NCBI RefSeq assembly: GCF_000499845.2
Contig: NC_023754.2
Span: forward strand, 22,136,111 to 22,200,110
Source of the DNA: Phaseolus vulgaris
Taxonomy: Eukaryota; Streptophyta; Magnoliopsida; Fabales; Fabaceae
Direction: 5' to 3'
DNA length: 64,000 nt
Shown here: positions 163 to 23,928 of the stretch, piece by piece
Layout: every line of letters begins with the position of its first letter
How positions within the stretch are numbered: position 1 is the first letter of the stretch
The notes under the pieces: generated by a model
The model's input: the letters and a program-made list of their open reading frames with translations, nothing else
Databases searched by the model: none
What the model was told of the DNA's origin: nothing
Made by a program: the position numbers and the translations under genes

Positions 163-3100
163 TCAACTGTAATAAAATTTGAGATGCGTGGCATTCCACG
201 TTCTCGGTATGTCCTTCCCAGATAAATGTTCTAAGTAATAGGCTCCACCGGCTGCCGTATCTGCTATGCGGAATGGTTCTTCCCAATTGCTAGAGAACTT
301 GCCTCCTTCCTTCCGGGCGCTGCTCCGCATTCGCCATACTAAGTCGCCTTTGTGGAACAATCTTGGTTTGACTTTGGAGTTGTATCGTCTGGCCGCCCGA
401 ATTTTGCATGCTTCCTCTCTAATTCTACACTTGTCCCGAAGTTCGTTGATGAGATCGAGGCCGACCGAGAGGCTTTCCTTGTTTATATCAAGATCAAGGG
501 TTTATCGGCGGAGAGAGGGTTCTCCAATCTCGACGGGGATCATAGCTTCAGTGCCATACGTTAGGCTGTACGGCGTTTCTTGTGTAGTCGTCTGAGGAGT
601 ACAGCGATATGCCCATAAGACCTCTAAGAGTTCTTCGGTCCAGTTGCCCTTTGCTGGGCCGAGACGTTTCTTTAGTTCGTTCAAGATGACCTTGTTTGCA
701 GCTTCTGCTTGTCCGTTTGTTTGTGGATGTTCGACTGAACTAGCGATGTGTTTGATGTGGAGCTTCTCGTAAAATTCAGCTAACGTCCGGTCGGTGAATT
801 GCCGACTGTTATCGGTGATGATGATCTGTGGAAGCCCGAAGCGGCAAACGATATTTTTCCATACGAAATTTTGAACATTGCGGGCGGTGATTGCAGTCAG
901 AGGCTCGGCTTCGATCCACTTGGTGAAGTAATCAATGCCGACTAGTAAGAATTTACACTGGCCTTTACCGGGGGCGAAAGGACCAATGATGTCCATACCC
1001 CATTGGACGAACGACCAAGGTGATAACATAAAATGGAGTTCCTCAAGTTTTTGATGGGACAAAGTGCCAAACTCTTGGCATTTAAGACATTTTTGGACGA
1101 AATTGGTGCAGTCACCTTGGACGGTCGGCCAGTAGTATCCGGCCTGGAATACTTTGGCAGCCATTGTTCGTGCGCCGGAGTGAGTTCCGCAAATTCCTTC
1201 GTGCAACTCTTGGACGACATAGGAAGCTTGGTCGGGTGTTAAACATTTAAGGAGTGGTTGGGTATAACCTCGACGATAAAGGTCGTCGCCAATTAAGACA
1301 AAACGGGCGGCCTGCAGCTTCATGGTTTTTTCGTCGAGAGGACTACATGTGCCGTCGAGTAAATATTGCTTGATTGGGGTAATCCAAGTAGATTCTGCGT
1401 CGGTTGTTAGGCATTCCTGTAGGTCGATGCTTGGGCGTGCAAGCGTAACATGGATGACCGACCTATGCATTCCTTTACACTTCGTGGTTGCTAACCGGGA
1501 CAAGGCGTCCGCGCGAGTATTGTGATCGCGTCGAACGTGCTGCATAGAAATTTCAGAAAAGGTGCTCATCGATTGTTTGACTAAGTGATAGTATCGCTGT
1601 AAAAAGCTTTATCGGACTTCATATTCGTCATTAAGTTGACCGATGACTAGCCTGGAATCACTTTTACAAATTAACTTAGTGATTTCCAATTCTTGAGCGA
1701 GGCGTAGACCGACTAAAATGGCTTCATATTCGGCCTGATTGTTTGAAGTTTTGAAGTCGAATTTTAGGGCTTGCTCGATGACAATCTCGCCGGGGCCTTC
1801 CAAAACGACTCCAGCGCCGCACAACTTTTCATTGGAGGAGCCGTCCACGTATAGGATCCACGATGAGTGTTCAGTCTCGGCTGAGGAAGGAGTGAGTTCG
1901 GCTGCGAAATCAGCAAGAGCTTGCGATTTGATGGCCCCTCGTGGTTGGTACTGAATATGGAATTCGGATAGTTCTATCGTCCATCCGATCATTCGTCCGG
2001 CTAAATCTGGTTTAGTGAGAATCTTTACTATGGGGTAATTTGTCCGAACAATAATACGATGATTTTGAAAATACATCCGCATTCGTCGGGTGGTAATAAC
2101 GAGAGCCATAGCTACTTTTTCGATCGTTTGGTATCGGATTTCGGCGCCATGGAGGGCGCGGCTGACGAAATAAACTGGCCGTTCATCAAAATTAATTTCT
2201 TGCACTAAGACTGAACTGACGGCTTCGTGTGAAAGGGCGAGGTAGACTATAATGGGCTCTCGGGCGTCCGGTTTCTGGATGACCGGCGGGGAAGATAGAA
2301 AAGTTTTCAATTGGAGGAAAATTTCTTCGCATTCGGTCGACCACTCAAAGCGGGATGCTTTTTTCAATAGTCGGACGATGGGTCTCGTTCGTTCGGCAAG
2401 TTTAGGAACAAATCTGGATAGAGCGGTGAGTCGGCCGATAAGTCTCTGAATTTCCTGAATGGAGTTGGGACTTCTCATTTCGGAGATAGCTTTACATTTC
2501 TCGGGGTTAGCTTCGATGCCTCTATGAGTTAGCATAAAACCTAAGAACTTCCCCCCCTCAACGCCGAACGCACACTTGTCAGGATTGAGTCGCATCTGGT
2601 GTTGGCGAAGGGCCTGAAAAACTTCTTTTAGGTCAGCAGTATGTTGTTTGCATGAGTCGGACTTGACGACAATGTCATCAACATAGACTTCAACATTCCT
2701 GCCGATCATGTCGTGGAATACATGGTCCATTAGTCTTTGATAAGTGGCCCCGGCATTTTTGAGTCCGAAGGGCATAACTTCATAGTAGAAATTATTAGAA
2801 TCAGTCATGAAGGCTGTCTTCTTTCGGTCGGCCGGGTGCATTTGGATTTGATTATAACCTGAATAGGCGTCAAGGAAGCTGAGGATGTGATGTCCGACCG
2901 CTCCATCAACGAGACGATCAATGGTAGGTAGAGGGTAAGAGTCTTTTGGGCATGCCTTATTGAGGTCCTTGTAATCAACGCACATTCGCCATTTTCCGTT
3001 CGCTTTCTTTACCATAACCACGTTGGTGAGCCATGTGGTGTAATGGGCTTTTCGAATGAATCCAGCTTGTAATAATTTATCCGCTTCGTCACGTGCGGCT

Positions 3101-4632
3101 TGACGTCGTTCCTCGCCTAGATGTCTTTTCTTTTGAGCTATTGGCCTAGCCTCTTTATACAGTGATAGTCGGTGAGTGATAACCTGTGGGTCTACGCCAG
3201 GCATATCAGCGGCCGTCCAGGCGAACAGATCGGCATTTTTAACAAGTGTCGTTCCGATGGCCATTCGGTCGTCCGGTTTCAGCGAAGTGCCGATGTGCGT
3301 AGTGTGGCGATCATCGTGAAGCGGGAATGGATGCAAGTCTTCTCCTGCTTCCATACGGGGATCGTCCATACGAGGGTCGAGGTCAACAAGGGCTATCATC
3401 TTACGACGGGACATGTGCCGTCCGGAACGCCGAGTGGGGGATCGTCCTCGTTTTTGTGGGACTCGGTCGTCCGGATTGGTTGTGTAGAGTCGTCGAGTTG
3501 GCTCACTTTTCAAACTTGCGACATAACATTCTCTAGCGGTTTTTTGATCAACATGGATGGTTGCAATGTCGTTAGTGGCCGAAGGGAATTTCATGGCTAA
3601 GTGTGGGGTGGAGATAATGGCTTTTAATCTGTTGATAGACGGTCGGCCGAGCAGGATGTTGTAGGAAGTCTGGGCGTTAACCAACAGATATCGTACGTTT
3701 ATTGTTTTGTGGAGACCGTCTTCCTCACCAAAGGTTGTATATAAGTCTATATACCCCTTAGTGTCGACCCGTTCACCTGAGAACCCTACAATTTGTTCGT
3801 TATAGGGTTGAATATCTGATTCTGGGATGCGCATTTTCTTGAAAATTTCCCAGTATAATATGTCGACTGAGCTACCTTGGTCGACCAAGGTCTTGGCAAT
3901 TGCGAACTTGTCAATTTCTACAGTGATTACCATAGGGTCGTCCTGGGCTGGATCTATAGCTGTAAAGTCATCGTCAGTGAAGGTGATCGGAGGTATGTGT
4001 GGACGCCTCCTTGTGGTAGCATGAGCGGACTGGATGTCCCAGAGATGTTTCTTTCGGGCGGAATTTGAGCACCCGCCACCGGCAAAGCCCCCGGCTATAT
4101 AATTTGCTTCGTGGTTCGGTTCGCCCAAGTTAACGAGTCCAGCAATCATGTTGATGACTTCGTGGACTCGTTGGCGAGGGCGAGTGTTTCGGTCGGGACT
4201 TGTGCTGCCGGCGCGTGTACGCCGAACGGGGCTTTCACTGCGTTTCCGCGAAGCCTGGTTATGGTCGGTTCGGCGTTTGTAATCGTTACGGTATGACCGG
4301 TTGACACCACGAGATGGACGGTCGGTACTCCGTGGTGGGGATCTTGAATTTCTTGTCCTCTTAACGAACTGCCTCAAATGACCAGCCTGGATGAGCTCTT
4401 CGATTTTGTCCTTCAACGCCTGACATCCTTTGGTCGTGTGGCCGAAGTTTCGATGGTATTGACAATGCTTAGCGGTGTCTGCATTCGGTGGCATTTGATA
4501 TTGCTTCAATATCGGGATTAAGTCTGTTTGTAGTGCTTCATCTAGGGCTCGTCCCCTCGGCACAGTTAAGGGGGTGTAACTGTTAAACCTGGGGATTCGG
4601 CCTCCTCTGCTCCGGTCGGACCTTGGAGTGGT
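163..4632 (-). pseudogene. Gypsy gag C-terminus and pol polyprotein, two in-frame stops
   Basis: One frame runs from 4632 to the stop at 163-165, broken only by stops at 1609-1611 and 502-504. In order it shows a gag zinc-knuckle-like segment (CQYHRNFGHTTKGC, about 4430-4475) and a protease motif (VDQGSS, near 3880). Reverse transcriptase follows, with FLDAYSGYNQ and YVDDIVV (near 2675). An RNase H, then a second RNase H begins at YVDGSS (near 1850) and ends at RADALSRLA. Integrase has an HHCC finger (KCLKCQ) and the D, D, E residues in MDIIGPF, TDNSRQF and NGQAEAANK. The C-terminal tail lies at 163-360. Canonical TDNG reads TDNS here. Both stops look recent, since similarity continues on either side. 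Confidence 0.92.
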
Positions 4633-5823
4633 TGATGAGCATATATTTATTCACACTCACTAGCCTTATTCATAGATTATTGGACTATAATAATAAATAA
4701 ATCCATTGTTTTAATTAATATTCTTATAATTGGGTTTATTTGGGCCTTAACTATTATTATTGTTAATTTTGTCTTTTTAGAGTAAATTATCCAGAGGAAG
4801 CATCTACCTTTGTGAATGGGCCAAATATGCAAAAGTCCAAGTTGCTTCTTGAACCAAAATAGAAAAATATTCTGAGGAGAAGAAAGAGAAAATAAAAGCT
4901 ACAAGATTCCAGAAACAGAATTGGAAGCAAATCTTCTGCAAAATAAAAAGAATTATGGAAAGTAAAACTGTTTACAAAATCTAAACTGCAATATTTTCCC
5001 AAGATCCTTGGAGCAGAAAAGCCTATAAAAGGACACAAGCATCAAGGAGAAAAGAGAGAGCTTTATAGGGTTTTCTTAGTTTATTTTCTTCTTAGTAATT
5101 CTTTTGTTTTGCCTCCGCATGGAAGGCTAAGTCTTTTTGGTTGATTCTTTTGTAATTCCCCATTGAGTTCTGAGGTTTTGTTCAATAAAAGTTTCGATTT
5201 TTAATTCTCTATAGCAGTTGTTTTTATTGTCTAATCTCCTGGAAAACTGGTTTTTGTGAGAGGTTGTACTTGAACGCATGATTGAGAGTCTTCCTTATCT
5301 TGAACTTTGGTTTCTTAGTTAGTTCACATTGTTCTAATTAATTTCTTGGGCGCATGATTCAAGGGAGAGGAGGTAAGCATTCCCATGGAGTATACGCATG
5401 GAACAAAGTGGGTATTGATTAAACCAGTAGACGCATGCTTTACTGGTGAGTTTCAGTTGAATCAGATCGGCGCATGTTCAATCTGGTTTAGCTCTGTTAG
5501 AGGATTGAGAAAAGATTAATCTTTAGAGAACCTGTGAAGAATTCAATGGTGGAAGAACTTGGGATCAACCGCTTTTTATTTGTTATTTTAATCTTTTTTA
5601 TATTTTCTGCACAACTATCTCAAACCCCCTTTTTATCTTTATTGTTATTGCTAACTTTTATTGCTTGCAGATAGATTTTAAACCCTGATCAACTGATTTT
5701 ACTATTGGATTCGTTTGGGAGACGACTTGGGGACATTTGTCCACAATTATACTATCATATCTCTAGTGTTAGACAAGTCTACGCTAGAATCATATTAATT
5801 TGATAGCAAAACGACAGCTATCA
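4633..5823 (+). repeat. 5' LTR of nested element
   Basis: It starts TGATGAGCATATATTTATTC directly after interrupted gag codons and ends CTATCA four bases before the primer site. The length is 1191 bp. Repeated short segments containing 'gcatg' occur at 5100-5480. The boundary is supported by gag homology on the left and the primer site on the right, but there is no second LTR to compare. Confidence 0.65.
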
Positions 5824-8657: not shown

Positions 8658-9358
8658 TAAATTATTATGTAGTAATTACTATTTTAGAAAGATTATAATT
8701 TACAAGTTAATTTATCAAAATTTAGTATAATTAGAAATTATGAAATGATAATAATATTATAGTTTAAGTTACAGTCTTAACTAATAGTTTAAGTTACATT
8801 TTTAAATAAAAAGAGTTACGTTCTTATGAGTTATAGTTTATTGAATATTCAATTTTTATTTAAAACAATTGTTGAATGGAAGATTAATGCAAAATAACAG
8901 AGTAGATAATTGATGTATGTTATACTGATACGAGGTGTTACAATATCAATTTTAAATTTATGTTGTTAATTTCAATCATTATTATAGATAAAAAAAATAA
9001 CTAAATTAACTACATTAAAATTCATATTAATACAATTTCAAGTTATTTAGAATTTTAATGTATGTTAGTGACATTTAATTTCATCCAATCATTTCTTCTC
9101 ACTGTATTTTTATTTCGTGCTTTAATGTATTGTCTTAGGTTTATTTACTCCAAATGCAATTAACTAAACATGTCATTTAACTTGTAGGATATTTCATATA
9201 TGAGATAAATTAAGTTTAATATTTTTTTACATTTTCCATATAATGTTGAAAAACATAATTAAAATTTAAAAATCACATCTTTATTTGTTTTCATATTTAA
9301 ACTATTTTTCATCTTGTAAGAAGGCATTAAAGTAAAGTAAATGTAAAAACTATATAGA

Positions 9359-9393
<35 letters not shown>

Positions 9394-11413: not shown

Positions 11414-12470
11414 CACTACAAGAAAATAATTAAATATAAACTAATTTTAGAGACCAAAATAATTAGTCACTATATTGACTAAATTATAAATAATTTTATA
11501 AATTAAAAAAATATTGGTATCTAAAATAGTTTATATTATTAATAAAAATTTATAAAGTGGTATCTAACCATTAGCTACCAAGGTTTTAACTACTAGATGC
11601 TAGGGGATATCCTGGTCTTGCTACTTGTGGAGGTATTTTTCGTGGGAGTATGGAGGAATTTATTGGAGCTTTCTCTGCGTTTCTTGAAGTTCAAACTGTT
11701 TTACTGAGTTTTATGGGGTTATACATGTTATGGAGGAAGCTTAAAAGATGAGGCTTACTGATGTCTAGCTAGAATGTGATTCTGCTTTGGTTTGTGTTGC
11801 GTTTACTGATAGGACCAATGTTCCTTGGATGCTTCGTAATCAATGAAATACTTGTCTTAATTACTGTGGAAAAATCAGGTTAAAGATTACTCATATTTTT
11901 CGTGAAGGGGATGCATGTGCTGATAAGTTGGCTAATTTATGATTTATTCATAGAAAATCTTTTCATTGGTATAATATACTACCATCTAGTCTGTTCTTAG
12001 AATTCTTTATGAATAGGTATAGTCTACCTATGTATCGTTTTTGTTAATATATGGATTTTGGTCTAATCCTTCAATATTTTTGTATTTTTTTTCTTTTTTA
12101 ATAATATTTTTTTTCATGCGATGACAAATGATTGTTGTTACTTGAGGTATCAACATAACTGAGATGTCAAATTGCATAGTAATGTCTAACATGAAAGCTT
12201 TTATTTAAAAGTAAAAACTACTAACTACTTTATATTCTAAATTAGTATCTATCCGTCTTCTAGAGACTAATTTAGAATATAAAATATTAGTGACTAAAAT
12301 CTTGATAGTTAATTTAGATATCAATTTAAAAATTATTTTATAAATTTTTATTATTAATAGAATCACTCTATATATCAATAATTTTTTAGTCTAAAATAAT
12401 ATATAATTTAGTTAATATGGTGACTAATTATTTTTTTTTTCTTCTAAATTTGATTGCTATTAAATAAAAA
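11414..12470. mobile_element. CACTA-end inverted-repeat element carrying a LINE RNase H remnant
   Basis: It starts CACTACAAGAAAATAATT. The left arm (about 11440-11590) and the right arm (about 12290-12440) are inverted copies, with phrases such as aataattagtcac on the left and gtgactaattatt on the right. Between the arms lies a decayed non-LTR RNase H segment. A second copy of the left arm plus the RNase H core is at 21828-22555, upstream of the third RNase T2 gene, so the element was present before that duplication. The right limit is approximate. Confidence 0.55.
11605..11942 (+). pseudogene. LINE-type RNase H domain remnant
   Basis: Translation with one frame change gives GYPGLATCGGIFRGSM, then EFYGVIHVMEEA, LECDSALVCVAF and REGDACADKLANL. 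These are the blocks of the RNase H domain found at the C-terminus of plant LINE polyproteins. Stops TAA, TAG and TGA interrupt it. Confidence 0.7.
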
Positions 12471-12649
12471 TATTTTTATAATTATTATTTTGTATTGTTT
12501 TAGCACTATTAAAAGTAGATTTAATTATCTTGAAATATAGTTACTAATTAGAAGAGTTTTAAAATGAAAGTGATTAATTAAGGTCTACGTTCAATATTAA
12601 AGTTGATATGCTTCAATAAATCTGTTTGTCTTCCTATAATCTCAGTTCC

Positions 12650-12657
12650 TATAAATA
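12650..12657 (+). promoter_or_regulatory. TATA box of RNase T2 copy 1
   Basis: TATAAATA lies 44 bp before the ATG. The same sequence at the same spacing precedes copies 2 and 3. A start site about 30 bp downstream would leave a leader of only about 12-15 nt. Confidence 0.6.
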
Positions 12658-12693
12658 TCATTTAACTTCTCAACTTCTAAATCAAACTAATTC

Positions 12694-13468
12694 ATGATAT
12701 TTAGTCTTCACTTCAATATCATGTCTATACTTTTTGTTTTCTCTCTCTTTCTTCTCCTAAATGTACCCAAGTCGTGTATTGCTGAAAAAGATTACGAGTT
12801 TTTCATGTTAGCTCAACAATGGCCAAAAGGCTATTGTAATAGGATGGGTGTTCAGTGTAAATCGAGACCAAATAAATTCACTATTCATGGACTATGGCCA
12901 CAAGGATTGAATGGTCAATTATTAACTAATTGCGACGCTTCCAGCAGTCTTAGTCACGATGTGAGTATATTTCAATTTGTTATGGTTAGAATGAAGTTAT
13001 TTTATATGCTATAATGTTTAATGTTTGCCCTGTTTTGTATTTATCTAGGATATAAAAACCGTGGAAAAACAACTTTATTCGAATTGGCCAAGTTTAATTG
13101 GCAGGGATTTTGACTTTTGGTCTAGTGAGTGGAAGAAGCATGGAACATGTTCAGAGAAAGAGTTTTCAAAACTAGAATATTTCGAGACAGCGTTGCATAA
13201 TCATGCTCAAAACGACCTAATGGGTATCCTTAAAAGGGCAAATATTGTCCCAAATAAAAAACAACTTTATAATATAAGTTCTGTTGTTGCTGCAGTTCAC
13301 CAACACACTCAGCATCAGCCTCATCTTGTTTGCTATTTCGATGCACTACGAAATGTTAGCGCTCTTTATGAAATAGGTATTTGTTATGAGGAGGATGGAA
13401 AATCATACAAAAATTGTTTGGATCCTCATGGCACTTGTTATGGCACTGAATTAATATACCCAAAATGA
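12694..13468 (+). CDS. RNase T2, S-RNase-lineage type, copy 1 (228 aa)
   Basis: Exons are 12694-12960 and 13049-13468, with an 88-bp GT-AG intron in phase 0. The product is a secreted endoribonuclease. A hydrophobic signal peptide (ILFVFSLFLLL) ends near SCIA, about residue 30. CAS I is FTIHGLWP with catalytic His65. CAS II is EWKKHGTC with Glu116, Lys119 and His120, so it should be active. N-glycosylation sites are NIS and NVS. The single intron in the hypervariable region after HGLWP is the layout of S-RNases and their relatives; stylar S-RNases are the best known members. My count of the mature chain gives 21 Lys+Arg and 22 Asp+Glu, unlike the clearly basic S-RNases. A second in-frame ATG at 12721 would still leave a signal peptide. 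Tissue and role are unknown; self-incompatibility, defence and nutrition roles remain open. Confidence 0.92.
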
Positions 13469-14428
13469 TGTATTTGTTTATGCACCAATGATAATAAAGG
13501 CAATACAAGGATTCATTTTCCTTTAATTCTTGTTTGTGTGATGTGTGATGTGGTTACGCTCTTAGATATGGATTTTAAATACATATATACAAATAAAGAA
13601 CCATAAATAATATAATATCATAATATCTTTGATTGAATTGATTATGACATACTGGAATTGGATTAGTTCACTCATATAATTAAGATAGTAGATTTTTTAT
13701 GTACTTAAAATTGAAAAATAAACATTCAAAGGTGAGGTAACAAATACTTCATTACATGACTATGTGAGAATTACATACAATAAAAATTGTAAAGGAGGAA
13801 TTCAATGTAATAACAATTTAAATTGATAAATAAAAATGTAAATATCTGAAAAATAAATGCAAATTAAACTTGATTAATACTTATTATATCAAGTCATTTA
13901 ACACTATATAAAAAAAATAATATTATCTATGGATTTTCATCTACGAATTCAAATTTTGAATTTGTAGGTAAATTCAACCTTACTTATCTATATTATCTAC
14001 AAATTATTATCCACAAATTTATATTAAAAAATAAATTTAATAATATTATTAATAAAAATATTTTTATTAACAATATTAATAACTAAAAATATAAATAATT
14101 TTAATAGTTTTAAAATCTTAATAATATACATAATATTAATCATAGTAGTTATATACATAATATTAAAAATATTATTATAATATAAATAATTATAAAATTA
14201 TAATTAATATTTATAAATAATAATAATAAATAATAATAATCATAACTAATATATATATATATGCTAACATTATAAAATTAATAATATTAATATAATATCA
14301 TGAATAAGATAAATAACATTAATAATAATATTATTAATACTATTAATGACATTAATAATAGTATTAATAACAATAATATTAATAATATTAATTTTTTTAT
14401 TAATATTATTGATAATATTAATAATTTA
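13469..14428. other. Intergenic, AT-rich, ATT/AAT repeats
   Basis: The first 110 bases are 3' flank conserved with copy 3 (gctcttagatatg at 13559 and 24019). From about 14030 to 14428 there are dense taa/att repeats. No gene was seen. Confidence 0.55.
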
Positions 14429-15869
14429 TCTATACTTACTATATATAAAGGGGATTCCCCTCTTAACTGCTCTTGATTTTTTTTTTCTATTTTATCCTTA
14501 TATTAATATTTAATTTTATTATTGTATTATGGTCATTGTGTCATTTCTTATTCCCCTCTTAACTACTCTTAATTTTTTTTCCATTTTATCCTTACTTAAT
14601 AATTTATTGTATTAATTTATTTTGGTTATTTGGACATTTTATAATTTTAAAAATTAATAAAATAATTTTTTAATTTATTTTATTTGTTATTATTTAACTG
14701 GAAAGTGGAGAGAATAGAGAGAGTTGAGAGATTGATTAGTTACTTTTCTGTTTTAAATCTTCTTCTCTATTAAATAAAAAATTAAAGATATTTGTAATAT
14801 TTTGTGGATCACGGAAAGTTTTTAAATTGATATTTTTTTTATTAAATTGATTTAAGAAACAGATTTTATGATTCTCCACTACACATAACCCACATATCCT
14901 ACTTTCCACTTTTTCTCTCCTAGGTACCTACTTCCCACTTTCTCTCTCCACTACTCTTTATCTCATTTTAATGTTATTAAGAGAAATTGTTTTTGAAAAA
15001 TAAAAAAATACTAAAGAAATAAAAAATGCGGATACACAGTCACGTACGTTAGTGCGTGCCTGTGTTCCGCTAGTACCTATAAAGAAAATTCTCCATTATA
15101 ACTGTTTCTTTTTCTCTTTTTGGTATTCACTTTTTTCTTTTCACTCACAATATACTGTTGCATTCATTCTTCTTATATTATTAGGTAAATTCCTCCACCT
15201 TAGAACCTATGATATGCATCCAGTTTTTTTAAAATTACCATTCAATTTATTAAAAAAAAATACATTTAAAAAAATCAAATTCGAAATAGAATTAAAAAAA
15301 TGATAAAATATATTGTATATTATGTATTATAGCTCTTTTTAGTAAACTGAAATACACATATAACAATGATAAAATAAATAAATAAATGTGAATACACATG
15401 TTAATATTTAAAAAAATACAAATACACATAAATTTACGATGAATTAAAATATTATAATATGATTTTATAGTTCATTTTAATAAATACAAGTACACATATA
15501 ATAATGATAAAACTAAAAAATGCAGATATACAGTTTGATATTTAAAAAAAAATACAAAAACACATAAATTTATGATGAATTAGAATGTTTGAGTATGAGT
15601 TTATAATTCATTTTAATAAATACAAATACATATATAATAATGATAAAAATAAAAAATATGAATACATAATAATGATAAAAATAAAAAATATGGATACATA
15701 ATGATAATAATAAAAGATACACACTAATAGCAAAAATAAAAAATACAGATACACAATAATGGTAGAAATAAAATATTGGATACATTATATTAATAAAAAA
15801 ATATTGATATACATTAAAAACAAAAATAAAAAAATGCGGATATACAGGTGCAACGCTTATTCCCGCTAG
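14429..15869 (+). mobile_element. Non-autonomous Helitron with two possible 3' ends
   Basis: The 5' end TCTATACTTACTATATATAA follows an A. The 3' end CTAG at 15866-15869 is followed by T, as expected for insertion between A and T. An earlier end at 15070-15073 (CTAG then T) is preceded by a strong hairpin: gcggatacacag pairs with ctgtgttccgc around a smaller stem. The short form would be 645 bp. The extra 0.8 kb is made of AT-rich repeats that resemble the terminal region (gcggatacaca units). No Rep/helicase frame is present. Confidence 0.7.
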
Positions 15870-16229
15870 TATATTAATACTATTTAGAATATTAATAATA
15901 TTTAATATTGATCATTATAATAATAAATATAATAATAATCATCATAACATGACAACAAAGATCATGACTTCGAGTCCCACCCGCTACAGTTTATTTCTAA
16001 TATTAATTAATAATCATTGTAATAACATATGTAACAATTTTTCAATAATAATCCTAAAAATGAAAATAAATAATATTTGAAAATAATAAACAAATTCAAA
16101 TAATAATTTAAAATTTAAAAATAAAATTGATGAATTATCATGGATTTACTCAGATATTAAAGTTATGGAGTTAGTAGGTAACTCTCGTGTCAGTTACCAC
16201 ATACACTCGAAGATAAATTACCTACGGAT
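15870..16229. other. Intergenic, no gene seen
   Basis: AT-rich sequence with no recognisable frame or repeat boundary. Confidence 0.4.
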
Positions 16230-16669
16230 TTTGGATAAGCTAAGAGTTAGTTAACAATCACCTAGTTTATTTTCTAAAATCTAGTTTATATGTTATCAAA
16301 TAATTTATCAACTAGTTTTTTTCAAACGGATCAAATATCTAGAATGTGTTAGATGATAATCTCTAATAAAACATATTTAATACAATTTTTTCAAAAAGCA
16401 TTTTCTTTTACGTGTCATCTTATATTTATTTGGAATTTTGTAAATTTTATATATTTGAATTAGGATTTTCTTGTATAATGGTTTTGCACAAATTTAAATA
16501 ATTAGCATGCGTAAAAACACACATATATAAACAATCATTACATTTATTATTTATATTTATTAATTATATTGTATTTACTATTTCAACTAATCATTTTAAA
16601 TAAATCAAGAAATACTAGTTGAAGTTAATAAAATATATATAACTTTTTTTTTTCATTTATATATGTCAC
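16230..16669. repeat. Duplicated block B1 (downstream of RNase copy 1)
   Basis: It matches 18720-19290 and 25130-25460 in the same orientation. Shared phrases are taagctaagagtt, ttatcaactagtttt, gataat-tctaataaaacat and gtgtcatctta. One copy follows each of the three RNase genes. Part of it resembles common plant MITE sequence, so a dispersed repeat origin is possible. Confidence 0.6.
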
Positions 16670-16865
16670 AGTTAATCAATGTAAACTAATTAATAATTAA
16701 ATGAATGCTAAAAGAAACAGTTAATCAATGTAAACTAATTAATAATTAAATGAATGCTAAAAGAAACAGTTAATCAATGTAAACTAATTAATAATTAAAT
16801 GAATGCTAAAAGAAACAGTTAATCAATGTAAACTAATTAATAATTAGATGAATGCTAAAAGAAAT
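16670..16865. repeat. 49-bp tandem array, four copies
   Basis: The unit begins agttaatcaatgtaaactaa and ends gctaaaagaaac. Copies start at 16670, 16719, 16768 and 16817. The first three are identical and the fourth has only a couple of changes. The homologous place after copy 2 (about 19245) has a single degenerate unit, so the array grew after the blocks split. Confidence 0.95.
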
Positions 16866-17640
16866 AATGATGGTAGAGTTCACAAAAAAGCGACGCAAAG
16901 AGTAAAAAAAAAAGACTATTCCTGAGACTAGTGTGGACTTAACATCCCAATAGAAATGGAAACTAATGTTTTGATGGCTATGCATTAGAGAGAACCTCCA
17001 ATTAGACACAAATTTACAAGGTAGTATCGACTAAGCCTACATAAAGAAAAATATATTATTTAACTATAACGTAGGTTTGAAGGATACTAAAATGACTATA
17101 AAATTAAATAATTATTAAGAAGTGGAATTTAAGTCTTTCCACCCACTTATATACTATAAAATGGTCATAATATCTATATATAGTCTCGTGCGTGAGACTA
17201 TATATTATGTGTGGGTTATGACTCACCTTAAACCGTTTTCTTGGCATAATTGGGAGGTTACTTGTCACACTTAATTGCAATCAAAGGGAGGTTACTCACC
17301 ACAATTAATTGTAATCAAATGGAGGTTTCTTACTACAATTAATTGTCATTAAAGGAAGGTTAATTACCATTAATTGTCTTTATTATTGTTGTCTCCTATA
17401 ACCACTATATATAGTGGCTTCCTTCAAACAATGTAACACACAAAAACAGCAACACACATTTCTGGTATCATTTCTTTAGTTGAAATTATTACGCTTCCGC
17501 ACACGATATCCCTACATTATGAGTGGTCCGATAACAAGTGACTTGATAAGCCCAATAAACAATTGTTAGGATAGACTCAAAATGATCCTGATATCAACTT
17601 AGAAGGTAAGGTTTACACCCACTTATATAACTCTTTTTGT
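16866..17640. other. Spacer with LTR-like promoter region and short tandem repeats
   Basis: About four degenerate copies of a 34-bp unit (ggaggttact...cacaattaattg) lie at 17250-17380. A TATA-like ctatatatagtgg at 17405 and a sequence rich in 'aacacac' follow. The look is that of a solo copia-type LTR, but I cannot fix TG...CA ends or a target duplication. No gene was seen. Confidence 0.35.
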
Positions 17641-17660
17641 CTTCTTATAATCTCAGTTCC

Positions 17661-17668
17661 TATAAATA
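17661..17668 (+). promoter_or_regulatory. TATA box of RNase T2 copy 2
   Basis: TATAAATA is 44 bp before the ATG, as in the other copies. Similarity to copy 1 upstream extends only to about 17625, so this copy kept little more than the core promoter. Confidence 0.6.
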
Positions 17669-17704
17669 TCATTTAACTTCTCCACTTCTAAATCAAACTG
17701 ATTC

Positions 17705-18485
17705 ATGATATTTAGTCTTCACTTCAATATCATGTCTGTGCTTTTTGTTTTCTCTCTCTTTCTTCTCCTAAATGTACCCAATTCCTGTATTGCTCAAAAA
17801 AATTACAGTTCTTTCGTTTTAATTCAACAATGGCCAAAAGGCTTTTGTAGAATGATAGGTGGATTCTGTACAATGAAACCAAATAAATTCACTATTTATG
17901 GACTATGGCCACTGCGACCGAATGGTCGACCAATAAAGTATTGCAACACTGACAGCAATCTTAGTGAAGATGTGAGTATATTTCAATTTGTTATGGTTAG
18001 AATGAGTTTATTTTATATGCTTTAATGTTTAATGTTGGCCCTGTTTTGTATTTATATAGGATATAAAACCCTTGGAAAAACAACTTTCTTCGAATTGGCC
18101 AAGTTTAGGTGGCTTAGATTTTGCAGTTTGGTACGGTCAGTGGAAGGTGCATGGAACATGTTCAGAGAACGAGTTTACAAAACTAGAATATTTCCAGCTG
18201 GCGTTGGATAATTATGCTCAAAACGATCTACGGGATATCCTTAAAAAGGCAAATATTGTCCCAGATGAACAAAAACACTATAATAGAAGTTCTGTTGTTG
18301 CTGCAGTTCATCAACACACTCAGCATGATCCTCAACTTGTTTGCTATTTCGATTCAGTACGAAATGTCAGCGTTCTTTATCAAATAGCTATCTGTTATGC
18401 GGACGATGGAAAATCATACAAAAATTGTGTGTCTGATTTTATTGGCAATTGTTCTGGCACACAATTATTAATAGACCCAAAATGA
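17705..18485 (+). CDS. RNase T2 paralogue with lost catalytic residues, copy 2 (230 aa)
   Basis: Exons are 17705-17971 and 18060-18485, with an 88-bp GT-AG intron at the same site as copy 1. The signal peptide is almost identical to copy 1. CAS I reads FTIYGLWP: Tyr65 replaces the catalytic His. CAS II reads QWKVHGTC: Gln116 replaces Glu and Val119 replaces Lys, while His120 stays. The cysteine-bearing framework (QQWPKGFC, HGTC, LVCYF, NRS and NVS glycosylation sites) is kept and there is no stop or frameshift. By known T2 chemistry the protein should not cleave RNA. It could still bind RNA or a partner, or be a young pseudogene. Compared with copy 1, roughly 43 codons of exon 2 are replaced against five silent changes. 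Confidence 0.9.
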
Positions 18486-18539
18486 TGTATGAATTTATGC
18501 ACCAATAATATTTAATAAATACAAGGATTCATTTTCACC

Positions 18540-18719: not shown

Positions 18720-19290
18720 ATTAGTTTATATTTACCAACTAGTTTAACATTTTTTATCCGATAAATTAGTTTACCAACTCAAAACTTATATAAGATAAGC
18801 TAAGAGTTTGTTAACTATCACCTAGTTTATTATCTAAAAGCTAGTTTATCTGCTATCAAATAATTTATCAACTAGTTTTTATCTGGAATAAGTTAGATGA
18901 TAATTTCTAATAAAACATATTTATTACAAATTTTTCAAAATATATTTTTTTGTTACGTGTCATCTTATGTTTAGTTGGAATTAAATTTATTTTTGAATTT
19001 TATATTGAAATGGATCAAATTTTGATTTATATATTTGAATTAGGATTTTCTTTAATGGTTCTAGACAAATTTAAATAATTACCGTAAAGACATATATATA
19101 AACAATCATTACATTTATTATTTATATTTATTAATTGTATTGTATTTACTCTTTCAAATCATTTTAAATAAATCAATAAATACTAGTTGAAGTTAATAAA
19201 GTATATATAATTTTTTTTTCATTTTTTCATTTATATGTCACACGTTCAATCAATGCAAACTAATTAAAAATTAAATGAAAAACGAGAGGG
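18720..19290. repeat. Duplicated block B2 (downstream of RNase copy 2)
   Basis: Collinear with B1 (16230-16700) and B3 (25130-25460). It lies only about 230 bp after the stop codon of copy 2, whereas after copies 1 and 3 Helitrons separate gene and block. Confidence 0.6.
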
Positions 19291-19931: not shown

Positions 19932-20131
19932 GGTATAAGGATATAAATAATAAAAAAGTAATTATTGTTTTTTTTATACTTTCAAAATGACAATTTTTTA
20001 TAATTTATGACATTAATAAAACAATTGAGGAAGTATTATTTTGTAGTGTAATATTTAACTACACGAGTTAAATACTATTTTATAAACTAAAAACTTATTG
20101 ATACATAAAACAATTCTATATTTTAGTTATA

Positions 20132-21045
20132 CAAGGTGTTATAATATTAATTTTAATTTTATTATTGTTAATTTTAATTATTATTATAGATAAAAAAAAA
20201 TTAACTACATTAAAAGGCTATTAATACAATTTCTAGTTATTTAGAATTTTAATGTATGTTAGTGACATTTAATTTCATCCAAACATTTTTTCCCACTATA
20301 TTTTTATTTCGCGCTTTAATGTATTGTCTTAGGTTTATATATTTACTCCAAATGCAATTAAATGAACAATTAAATTATATTTGCCATTTAACTTGTAGGA
20401 TATTTCATATATGAGATAAATTAAGTTTAATATTTTTTTACACTGTGCATATAATGTTGAAAATTATAAGTAAAATTTAAACATGACATCTTTATTTGTT
20501 TTCATATTTAAACTATTTTTCATATTGTAAGAAGACATTAATGTAAAGTAAATGTACAAACTATATAGAATTACTATATATATAATATCTCATTAAATTT
20601 GTTTTCTTATTTTAATTGAGATATAAATTTTCTTATATTTTTATAGTTGTTGTTATGTTATTAAATTTAAAATAATTTTAGCGTAAGCTATCTAATCAGT
20701 GCTAGAATATTTTGTTAGATAGATAATATTGTGATCATATGACTCCAATTCATCTCCCAACGAATTCAATAGTAAAATCAATAAATCAATATTCATAATC
20801 TATTTGCAAACAAGAAAAGTTAGCAAAAACAATAAAGTTAGAAATAAAAATAAAAATAAGGAGAGTTGAGATGGTTGTGCAGAAGAATAAAGTAGAGATT
20901 ACAAAATAGTAAAAAATGCTTGTTGACTCCCAAATCATCTATCATAAGATTCTATCAAGGCATAAATAGTTTCCCTTGACTACAATGTCTATCTTCAAAG
21001 AAAATTTTCAAATTCAAATATAAAAGTTATATAAACTTATATATG
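20132..21045. repeat. Duplicated block A2 (upstream of RNase copy 3)
   Basis: 20132-20640 matches 8935-9480, and 20940-21045 matches 11100-11200. The CACTA-like element at 9488-10352 is absent between the matching parts. No gene was seen. Confidence 0.6.
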
Positions 21046-21827: not shown

Positions 21828-22555
21828 ACAAAAAATTCTTTAATAAAAACTAATTTTAAAGAACAAAATAATTAATCAATGTATTGACTAAATTAGAGAT
21901 CATTTCATAAACAAAAAAATTATTGATATATGATGGTAGTCCTTTGGTTAAATTGATTAAGCTTGTTGTTGTGAATGAATTATTAATTGTATTTGTATTT
22001 ATTTATTGTATCAATACACTGTATTGTATTGTCAGACTACTCTAGTTACTGAGTTTTATTTTATGGGTTATACATGCTATGGAGGAAGCTCAAAAGATGG
22101 AGCTTACTAATGTCTGGCTGAAATGTGATTCTGTTTTGGTTTGTGTTGCGTTTACTGCTAGAACAAATGTTTATTGGATCCTTCGTAATCAATGAAATAT
22201 TTGTCTTAACTACTGTGGGAAAATTAAGTTTGGGGTTACTCATAATTTTTGTGAAGGGAATGCATGTGTTGATAAGTTGGCTAATTTATGATTTATTCAT
22301 AGATAATCTTTTCATTGGTATAATAGGTTTTCATCTAGTTTATTCTTAGAATTCTTTATGAATAGGTATAGTCTACCCATGTATCTTGTTTTTGTTAACA
22401 TATGAGTTTTGGTCTAATCCCCCCATATTTTTGTAATTTTTTTAATAATACTTTTTTCATGTGATGACAAATGATTGTTGTTACTTAATGTGTTAGACTA
22501 ATTGAGATCTCAAGTTGCATAGTGATGCCTAACATGAAAGCTTTTATTTAAAATA
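21828..22555. mobile_element. Second copy of the CACTA-end element with LINE RNase H remnant
   Basis: The left arm at 21828-21935 matches 11414-11520. The RNase H core at about 22030-22292 matches 11700-11942 (EEAQKMELTNVWLKCDS, then a frame ending in ADKLANL-like sequence). The first part of the RNase H segment is missing here. Its place upstream of RNase copy 3 mirrors that upstream of copy 1. Confidence 0.55.
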
Positions 22556-23144: not shown

Positions 23145-23928
23145 ATGAAATTTAGTCTTCACTATCATGTCTATGCTTTTTGTTTTCTCTCTCTTTCTTC
23201 TCCTAGGTGTACCAAATTCTGTATTGCTGAAAAAAATTACACATCTTTCATGTTCGTTCAACAATGGCCTGAAGGCTTTTGTGAATACCAAGTGATAGTT
23301 GGTGGAAAGCGAAAATGCAAATCGAGACCACATAAATTCACTATTCATGGACTATGGCCACAATCGAATGGTCAATCAATTAGTGGTTGCAACGTTACCA
23401 GCGATCTTACTGAGCATGTGAGTATATTTCAATTTGTTATGGTGAGAATGAGTTTATTTTATATGCTATAATGTTTAATGTTTGCTCTGTTTTGTATTTA
23501 TCTAGGATATACATTCCATTAAAGGGAAACTTACTAAAAAGTGGCCAAATTTAATTGGTACGGATTTGAAGTTTTGGCAATTTGAGTGGACGAAGCATGG
23601 ATCATGTTCAGAGAATGAGTTCCCAAAACTAGAATATTTCCAGCTGGGGTTGGATAATTATGCTAAAAACAACCTAATGGATATCCTTACAAAGGCAGCT
23701 ATTGTCCCAAATGAAACCCACCTTTATGATACAACTGCTGTTCTTAGTGCAGTTCACCAACACACGAACCATGATGCTCAACTTGCTTGTTATGTGGATC
23801 CAACACACAATGCCAGCGCTCTTTATCAAATAGCTCTTTGTTATTCGGATGATGGAAAAACACACATAAACTGTCCCAATTCTCATGGCACTTGTCGTAA
23901 ACAGTTAATGTACCCAAAACCAAAATGA
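23145..23928 (+). CDS. RNase T2, S-RNase-lineage type, copy 3 with re-framed signal peptide (231 aa)
   Basis: Exons are 23145-23417 and 23506-23928, with an 88-bp intron. CAS I is FTIHGLWP (His68) and CAS II is EWTKHGSC (Glu118, Lys121, His122), so the active site is complete. N-glycosylation sites are NVT, NET and NAS. The variable region before CAS I is longer than in copy 1 (EYQVIVGGKRKC). Relative to copies 1 and 2, five bases are missing about 20 bp after the ATG and one base near the signal cleavage site. The total of six restores the frame, but the peptide between is read in another frame: MKFSLHYHVYAFCFLSLSS, still partly hydrophobic but weaker. Only the ATG at 23145 gives the RNase. 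Whether it is secreted is uncertain. Confidence 0.85.

Follow-up and report, generated by a model that had tools for sequence, protein, structure and literature searches.

The stretch of Phaseolus vulgaris DNA analyzed here (hereafter the window) covers 64 kb of chromosome 6, from position 22136111 to 22200110, and carries three tandem genes of the T2 ribonuclease (RNase) family, referred to as copies 1, 2, and 3 (c1, c2, and c3; Table 1). All six exon translations of these genes match PF00445, with 31.9 to 99.9 bits against a curated cutoff of 26. The known P. vulgaris proteins for c1 to c3 are "ribonuclease 1-like", PHAVU_006G112800, and ACSQ67_012317; c1 shows 100% identity across 178 aa of the first (P0002), and c2 agrees with the second (P0004) from residue 10 onward. 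A sequence-only reading of the window had held that c1 and c2 differ almost entirely by amino acid replacements while their intron is nearly unchanged, and had taken this as a strong sign of diversifying selection, as known for S-RNases. That claim is examined here, together with T2 RNase loci from a scan of the 537.7-Mb P. vulgaris genome.

Table 1. RNase T2 genes and duplicated sequence in the window, and the single-intron genes of a second trio
Feature	Sequence	Position	Strand	Description
RNase T2 copy 1 (c1)	window	12694-12960, 13049-13468	+	228 aa; PF00445 in both exons
c1 intron	window	12961-13048	+	88 bp, GT-AG, phase 0
RNase T2 copy 2 (c2)	window	17705-17971, 18060-18485	+	230 aa; PF00445
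c2 intron	window	17972-18059	+	88 bp, GT-AG
RNase T2 copy 3 (c3)	window	23145-23417, 23506-23928	+	231 aa; PF00445
c3 intron	window	23418-23505	+	88 bp, GT-AG
Duplicated block, c1 side	window	12616-13520	+	85.8% over 914 columns
Duplicated block, c2 side	window	17627-18536	+	85.8% over 914 columns
c1 upstream stretches	window	8916-9378, 11701-12210	+	
c3 upstream counterparts	window	20117-20588, 22046-22553		
L003	chromosome 4	6.31 Mb		single-intron T2 gene
L006	chromosome 4	6.92 Mb		single-intron T2 gene
L002	chromosome 4	9.24 Mb		single-intron T2 gene

Replacement and silent change in two RNase trios

A codon-by-codon recount returned the figures of the sequence-only reading: between c1 and c2, the mature part of exon 1 holds 29 replaced and 0 silent codons (n = 60), exon 2 holds 43 replaced and 5 silent codons (n = 139 aligned codons), and the intron differs at 5 of 88 bases. 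That the contrast lies between tandem paralogues, not alleles, likewise stands, and the replacement excess is confirmed as an observation. Across 198 mature codons, c1 and c2 differ 45, 38, and 24 times at codon positions 1, 2, and 3, respectively; in constrained genes, change falls mostly at the third position. The ratio of replacement to silent rates (dN/dS, or omega) for this pair by the NG86 method is 2.26 in exon 1, 1.37 in exon 2, and 1.64 over the whole mature part, and pairwise maximum likelihood (ML) gives 5.4 for mature exon 1 (p = 0.025) and 1.71 for the whole mature part (p = 0.13). A fit with free branches assigns omega values of 2.26 to c1, 1.57 to c2, and 0.99 to c3. The trio's gene-wide omega is around or slightly above 1, which is high for a folded enzyme; with the same code, a class I bean tandem pair gave 0.10 to 0.24 in three exon pieces, with high dS (1.1 to 2.6).

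A substantial but unlikely alternative to selection is relaxed constraint, by which the copies would drift at an omega near 1, c2 after the loss of its active site, with multi-nucleotide mutations mimicking selection. The remaining pairs fit this account (ML omega of 1.38 for c1/c3 and 1.06 for c2/c3, neither significant), as do the missing His65 of c2, the absence of both catalytic histidines from its P. coccineus counterpart, and the re-framed signal peptide of c3 described below. Further support for it comes from a decayed cluster of T2 RNase loci on chromosome 4 at 7.57-7.61 Mb (L009, L010, L013, L015, and L020), where stops or frame breaks occur in 5/5 copies. Six pairs among four of these copies (exon 2) have replaced-to-silent counts of 27:6, 23:3, 13:3, 27:4, 20:2, and 17:0, similar to those of the trio, and omega values from 0.89 to 2.86, which in no case depart significantly from 1. 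Because decayed, unconstrained copies also show few silent codons, the lack of silent change in exon 1 of c1 and c2 is less striking than it first appears, and site-level tests must carry the case.

These tests compared models M1a and M2a by twice the log-likelihood difference (2dlnL). In its ordinary form, the comparison gave 37.1 for the chromosome-6 trio, but it was falsely positive for the decayed copies as well (13.9, p = 0.001); it is therefore untrustworthy here and was rejected as evidence, and the 14 codons at posterior >0.9 that stem from the ordinary model are not relied on. A multi-nucleotide-aware version of the test was negative for the decayed copies (1.35, p = 0.51, 121 codons) and positive for the chromosome-6 trio (12.5, p = 0.0019, 196 codons). 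The trio's signal persisted after removal of codons at most four from a gap (9.9, p = 0.007, 159/196 codons kept), in a second alignment (17.4, p = 0.0002), and with two rate classes added (8.7, p = 0.013). Null simulations, which included multi-nucleotide changes without rate classes, reached 8.7 in 0/17 and 0/46 runs. The decayed copies entered the site test as L009, L013, and L015, with L010 used for pairs only and L020 for the decay check only; the codon tests do not cover L011, L024 (whose frame is broken), or the other genome loci, and L008 enters one pair only, in part.

The same pattern recurs on chromosome 4, where three single-intron genes (L002, L003, and L006) form a clade apart from the chromosome-6 trio and differ pairwise by 26:2, 52:6, and 55:4 replaced-to-silent codons. 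Pairwise omega values are 2.6 (p = 0.07), 2.0 (p = 0.07), and 2.7 (p = 0.009), and the single-ratio model M0 gives 2.2 to 2.5 (p = 0.01 to 0.03). The multi-nucleotide-aware test returned 18.5 for this trio (p = 0.0001), 16.1 away from gaps (p = 0.0003), and 11.7 with two rate classes (p = 0.003), and 0/46 of its null simulations reached 8.7. Statistically, the replacement pattern is stronger here than in the chromosome-6 trio. Replaced columns common to both trios number 37 of 182, slightly above chance (Fisher p = 0.034), an overlap that shared tolerance could produce.

Relaxed constraint is thus rejected by the multi-nucleotide-aware tests for both trios, but not for the decayed copies. The chromosome-6 trio also contains 0 stops, where full neutrality predicts 7 to 13 (P = 0.0006 to 3e-6), and its three P. 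coccineus counterparts are annotated as full-length, a weak point since gene predictors favor open frames. Several results nevertheless weigh against selection. The chromosome-6 site tests rest on three sequences only, and divided by exon, the multi-nucleotide-aware signal is weak (p = 0.023 for exon 1 and p = 0.043 for exon 2). By pairwise ML, exon 2 alone of c1/c2 has an omega of 1.09 (p = 0.85), close to the dN/dS near or below 1 that would speak against the selection inference, with exon 1 at 5.4. The M0 omega of the trio (1.34) is not separable from 1 (2dlnL of ~1.6), and for the c2 branch taken singly, the lack of stops does not settle the matter (P = 0.02 to 0.11). Nor is the pattern general in the family: omega is 0.38 for L007/L008 (p = 0.095) and 0.64 for L003/L007 (p = 0.06). 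In all, positive selection on roughly a quarter of the trio's codons is moderately supported. The inference of diversifying selection drawn by the sequence-only reading is partly supported, in that it holds at a subset of codons through the multi-nucleotide-aware tests, while over the whole gene, the omega of c1/c2 does not significantly exceed 1.

The intron as a clock

The sequence-only reading had rested its argument on exons that diverge several times faster than the intron. The counts behind this argument are sound, but as a clock the intron is unreliable. It differs at 5 positions between c1 and c2, at 4 between c1 and c3, and at 4 to 5 in all three pairs, whereas the near flanks of c1 and c3 differ at 58/330 positions, above the intron rate (Fisher p = 0.001). 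As the intron is slower than these flanks, it is unfit for timing, and its divergence was rejected as a neutral clock. For the other two pairs, the intron and near flanks are not significantly different (c2/c3, p = 0.07; c1/c2, p = 0.32). A similar picture is seen in the chromosome-4 trio, where the intron lies below the 5' flank in two pairs (2/74 versus 29/187, p = 0.003; 3/74 versus 27/187, p = 0.017) and not in the third (1/74 versus 4/200, p = 1.0).

In this family, the intron seems to be slow, either by constraint or by homogenization. The low intron counts in both trios are what would be expected if gene conversion had homogenized the intron (and the 5' end) while the exons kept older differences, which would make the exon-intron contrast an artifact. 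We consider this account highly improbable, given that each copy carries private intron changes (2, 3, and 2 in c1, c2, and c3, respectively) and that the selection signal within the exons is independent of the intron. Slow evolution of the intron is also indicated by P0015, a protein that reads through it: most of the intron's translation is kept (as judged by eye), while exon 1 is about half identical (27/58 to c1, 26/58 to c2, and 30/61 to c3).

Catalytic residues, fold, and orthologues

Both catalytic histidines are present in c1 (His65, codon at 12886; His120, codon at 13139) and in c3. In c2, His65 is replaced by Tyr (TAT at 17897) and Lys119 by Val (18147), with the second His kept (18150); in its P. 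coccineus counterpart, where the motifs are FTIYGLWP and WGMFGTC, neither His remains. As such, c2 is a T2 family member without an intact active site, and it retains the T2 fold. An AlphaFold2 model of c2 (P0004, 29 sequences) has this fold with a pLDDT of 91.3 and a pTM of 0.85, and its structural matches include RNase NW (TM 0.81), SF11-RNase (0.76), and CalsepRRP (PDB entry 1jy5; 0.73). Eight cysteines are found in each of c1, c2, and c3, and seven in P. coccineus c1.

Replacements between c1 and c2 are unevenly placed: they affect 13/20 codons of a stretch resembling HVa and 9/15 codons of the loop that joins cysteines 1 and 2, compared with 1/9 within the first catalytic motif and roughly one codon in three elsewhere. 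A stretch resembling HVb stands out only in pairs involving c3 (15/26 and 17/26 codons, versus 9/26 for c1/c2). The assignment of these stretches to HVa and HVb is presumptive.

Three P. coccineus genes with consecutive tags (VNO80_29503, VNO80_29502, and VNO80_29501) pair one-to-one with c1, c2, and c3. Support for these pairs (ultrafast bootstrap/SH-aLRT) is 100/91, 98/94, and 100/99 in a first tree, built from 36 of 126 database proteins and 3 window proteins, and 99/95, 95/91, and 100/99 in a second, built from 23 database, 3 window, and 4 chromosome-4 proteins; neither tree includes P0002 (a partial copy of c1), P0011 (a partial copy of c3), P0004 (equal to c2), P0015, P0016, or P0017. 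Judged from this pairing, the trio would have arisen before the two species split. Mature identity between the species is 171/198 (86.4%) for c1, 132/198 (66.7%) for c2, and 162/201 (80.6%) for c3. At a silent rate of ~6e-9 per site per year, these values would roughly correspond to orthologue omegas of 1, 3, and 1.6. The split itself is placed at ~4.7 million years ago in the available part of PMC11348429. By eye, the c3 signal peptide (23145-23230) is re-framed by deletions of 5 nt and 1 nt, and P. coccineus c3 (P0005) has a normal signal peptide resembling that of c1.

The DUF1442 neighbor served as a control. Among the best 120 of 368 matches, its best usable ones have 83% identity over 75% of the query in Sphenostylis and 80% over 81% in Flemingia, versus 46% and 40% for the RNase matches to P0001, which are at best putative orthologues. 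This control is weak owing to the 90% clustering of the database, and neither P. coccineus nor Vigna is named among those 120.

With respect to class, the single 88-bp intron of each copy agrees with the one or two introns of class III. Amino acid pattern 4, in the letters that we take it to have, is absent from 6/6 proteins, as class III requires. This absence is given as a class III criterion in the available part of PMC4451870. In the trees, the trio is separate from a class I group that has full support, but the deep nodes are weak (64/88 and 39/66). Within class III, the Fabaceae-specific subclass III-A, which has 49 members in the part of PMC9250077 available, resembles the trio in T2 family membership, legume-only expansion, and an intron number that fits the class. 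The terms "positive selection" and "Phaseolus" do not occur in the main text of that paper as available.

Recognition, defense, and the surrounding sequence

The S-RNase analogy of the sequence-only reading fails on several details. S-RNases of Rosaceae, Solanaceae, and other families share with the bean copies a T2 fold, one intron, and variability concentrated after the first catalytic motif, here the HVa-like stretch of c1/c2. The bean copies differ from them in being tandem paralogues, not alleles, in including one member without a catalytic His, and in an isoelectric point (pI) of 6.87 to 8.14, and they lie apart from Rosaceae S-RNases in both trees, albeit with weak deep nodes. Against the S-RNase threshold of pI >7.5, c1 (6.87) falls short while c2 (7.69) and c3 (8.14) exceed it; the residues for activity are intact in c1 and c3, not in c2. 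No F-box was found among 19 non-RNase window open reading frames (ORFs) scanned (18 of the 35 listed and one other), nor by a motif scan of the 64-kb window, and common bean is a selfing species. A legume survey reports, in its available part, no evidence that genes of the S-RNase lineage determine legume self-incompatibility, in a sample without Phaseolus genes (PMC4451870). S-RNase membership of c1 to c3 was rejected on the active-site loss of c2 and the pI of c1; it is very unlikely that they are S-RNases or S-locus remnants diversified by pollen-pistil recognition, and a self-incompatibility role for them is unlikely.

For the chromosome-4 trio, such a role is harder to dismiss because class III RNases and eight F-box loci are reported for bean chromosome 4 in the available part of Ramanauskas and Igic (PMC5598434), although their coordinates could not be matched to this trio. 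The sole F-box-like frame in the 200 kb surveyed on chromosome 4 is an open frame on the minus strand (L032:3-1244), ~47 kb from L003, with matches to F-box and FBA_1 below the Pfam cutoffs.

Our preferred reading, to which we assign a probability of about 0.6, is that c1 to c3 form a class-III-like T2 trio in which some sites are positively selected, c2 is a maintained pseudoenzyme, and an arms race is the driver. The signal peptides suggest secreted RNases, less certainly so for c3; the mature protein would have diversified after tandem duplication, with the replaced sites of c1/c2 concentrated directly downstream of the first catalytic motif and in the first Cys-Cys loop. With their catalytic histidines kept, c1 and c3 should cut RNA, whereas c2 has probably lost activity while its fold and eight cysteines were kept. 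The most likely driver would be a host-enemy arms race between extracellular RNases and binding or inhibitory molecules of pathogens or pests, with the variable stretches remodeled by the antagonist. A defense role is suggested by analogy, as with animal RNases. In bean itself, the analogy is with the wound-induced PvRNS2, a different S-like gene (PMC13306568, available part).

Known systems offer partial parallels to this reading. Tandem copies of secreted enzymes with fast mature exons and a slow intron are seen in eosinophil RNases and snake venom phospholipases, where fast exons followed tandem duplication, although folds and organisms are unrelated to the bean trio. CalsepRRP, a noncatalytic RNase-related protein with a storage role, has kept the fold and lost a catalytic residue, like c2; unlike it, c2 adjoins two copies with intact histidines and shows a fast replacement rate. 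In the part of PMC5598434 available, inactivity is inferred for 21 class III sequences from 12 clades.

A broader and doubtful extension is that two independent T2 arrays, on chromosomes 6 and 4, show between paralogues the diversification that S-RNases show among alleles, with some of the affected protein stretches in common. The inactive c2 would then serve as a decoy or binding partner, its counterpart being a rapidly evolving inhibitor or a receptor of the F-box type; the whole would be a recognition system with other targets, either an offshoot or a forerunner of the S-RNase system. That T2 RNases can evolve under positive selection is already known (PMC9762611, available part); two unlinked fast trios in one genome, together with a maintained inactive copy, are apparently unreported in the literature searched. 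In that search, five locus-tag stems gave no match, and for S-RNase, Phaseolus, and positive selection, only the legume survey has S-RNases in its title.

For many class III T2 RNases that take no part in self-incompatibility, no role is known, and the bean clusters provide a testable target. Two unlinked clusters, one with a maintained inactive copy, raise the question of which molecule these RNases chase, and bear on whether the S-RNase system grew from a family already under recognition pressure. In terms of method, the decayed-copy control demonstrates that site tests on three sequences and counts of "no silent change" easily mislead.

The c1/c2 duplicated block is only ~910 bp long, from ~78 bp before the upstream ATG to ~51 bp past the stop. 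The upstream stretches of c1 and c3 are 87.1% identical over 481 columns and 85.9% over 516 columns, and no counterpart precedes c2 among the listed matches of >80 columns; c1 and c3 therefore have a longer common duplication unit. Sequence resembling a long terminal repeat retroelement (17150-17620, by eye) adjoins the c2 block upstream, and c2 expression may differ. A repeat pair of ~500 bp (79%) surrounds c2 at 16234-16705 and 18794-19279, with related pieces at 25.1-25.8 kb, and may have mediated the duplication. Elsewhere in the window, gypsy-like polyprotein frames lie on the minus strand at 502-4650, and other frames match eIF3-p135, DOMON (with a subthreshold cytochrome b561 match), DUF1442, DUF212, and a PI3/PI4 kinase with ubiquitin domains.

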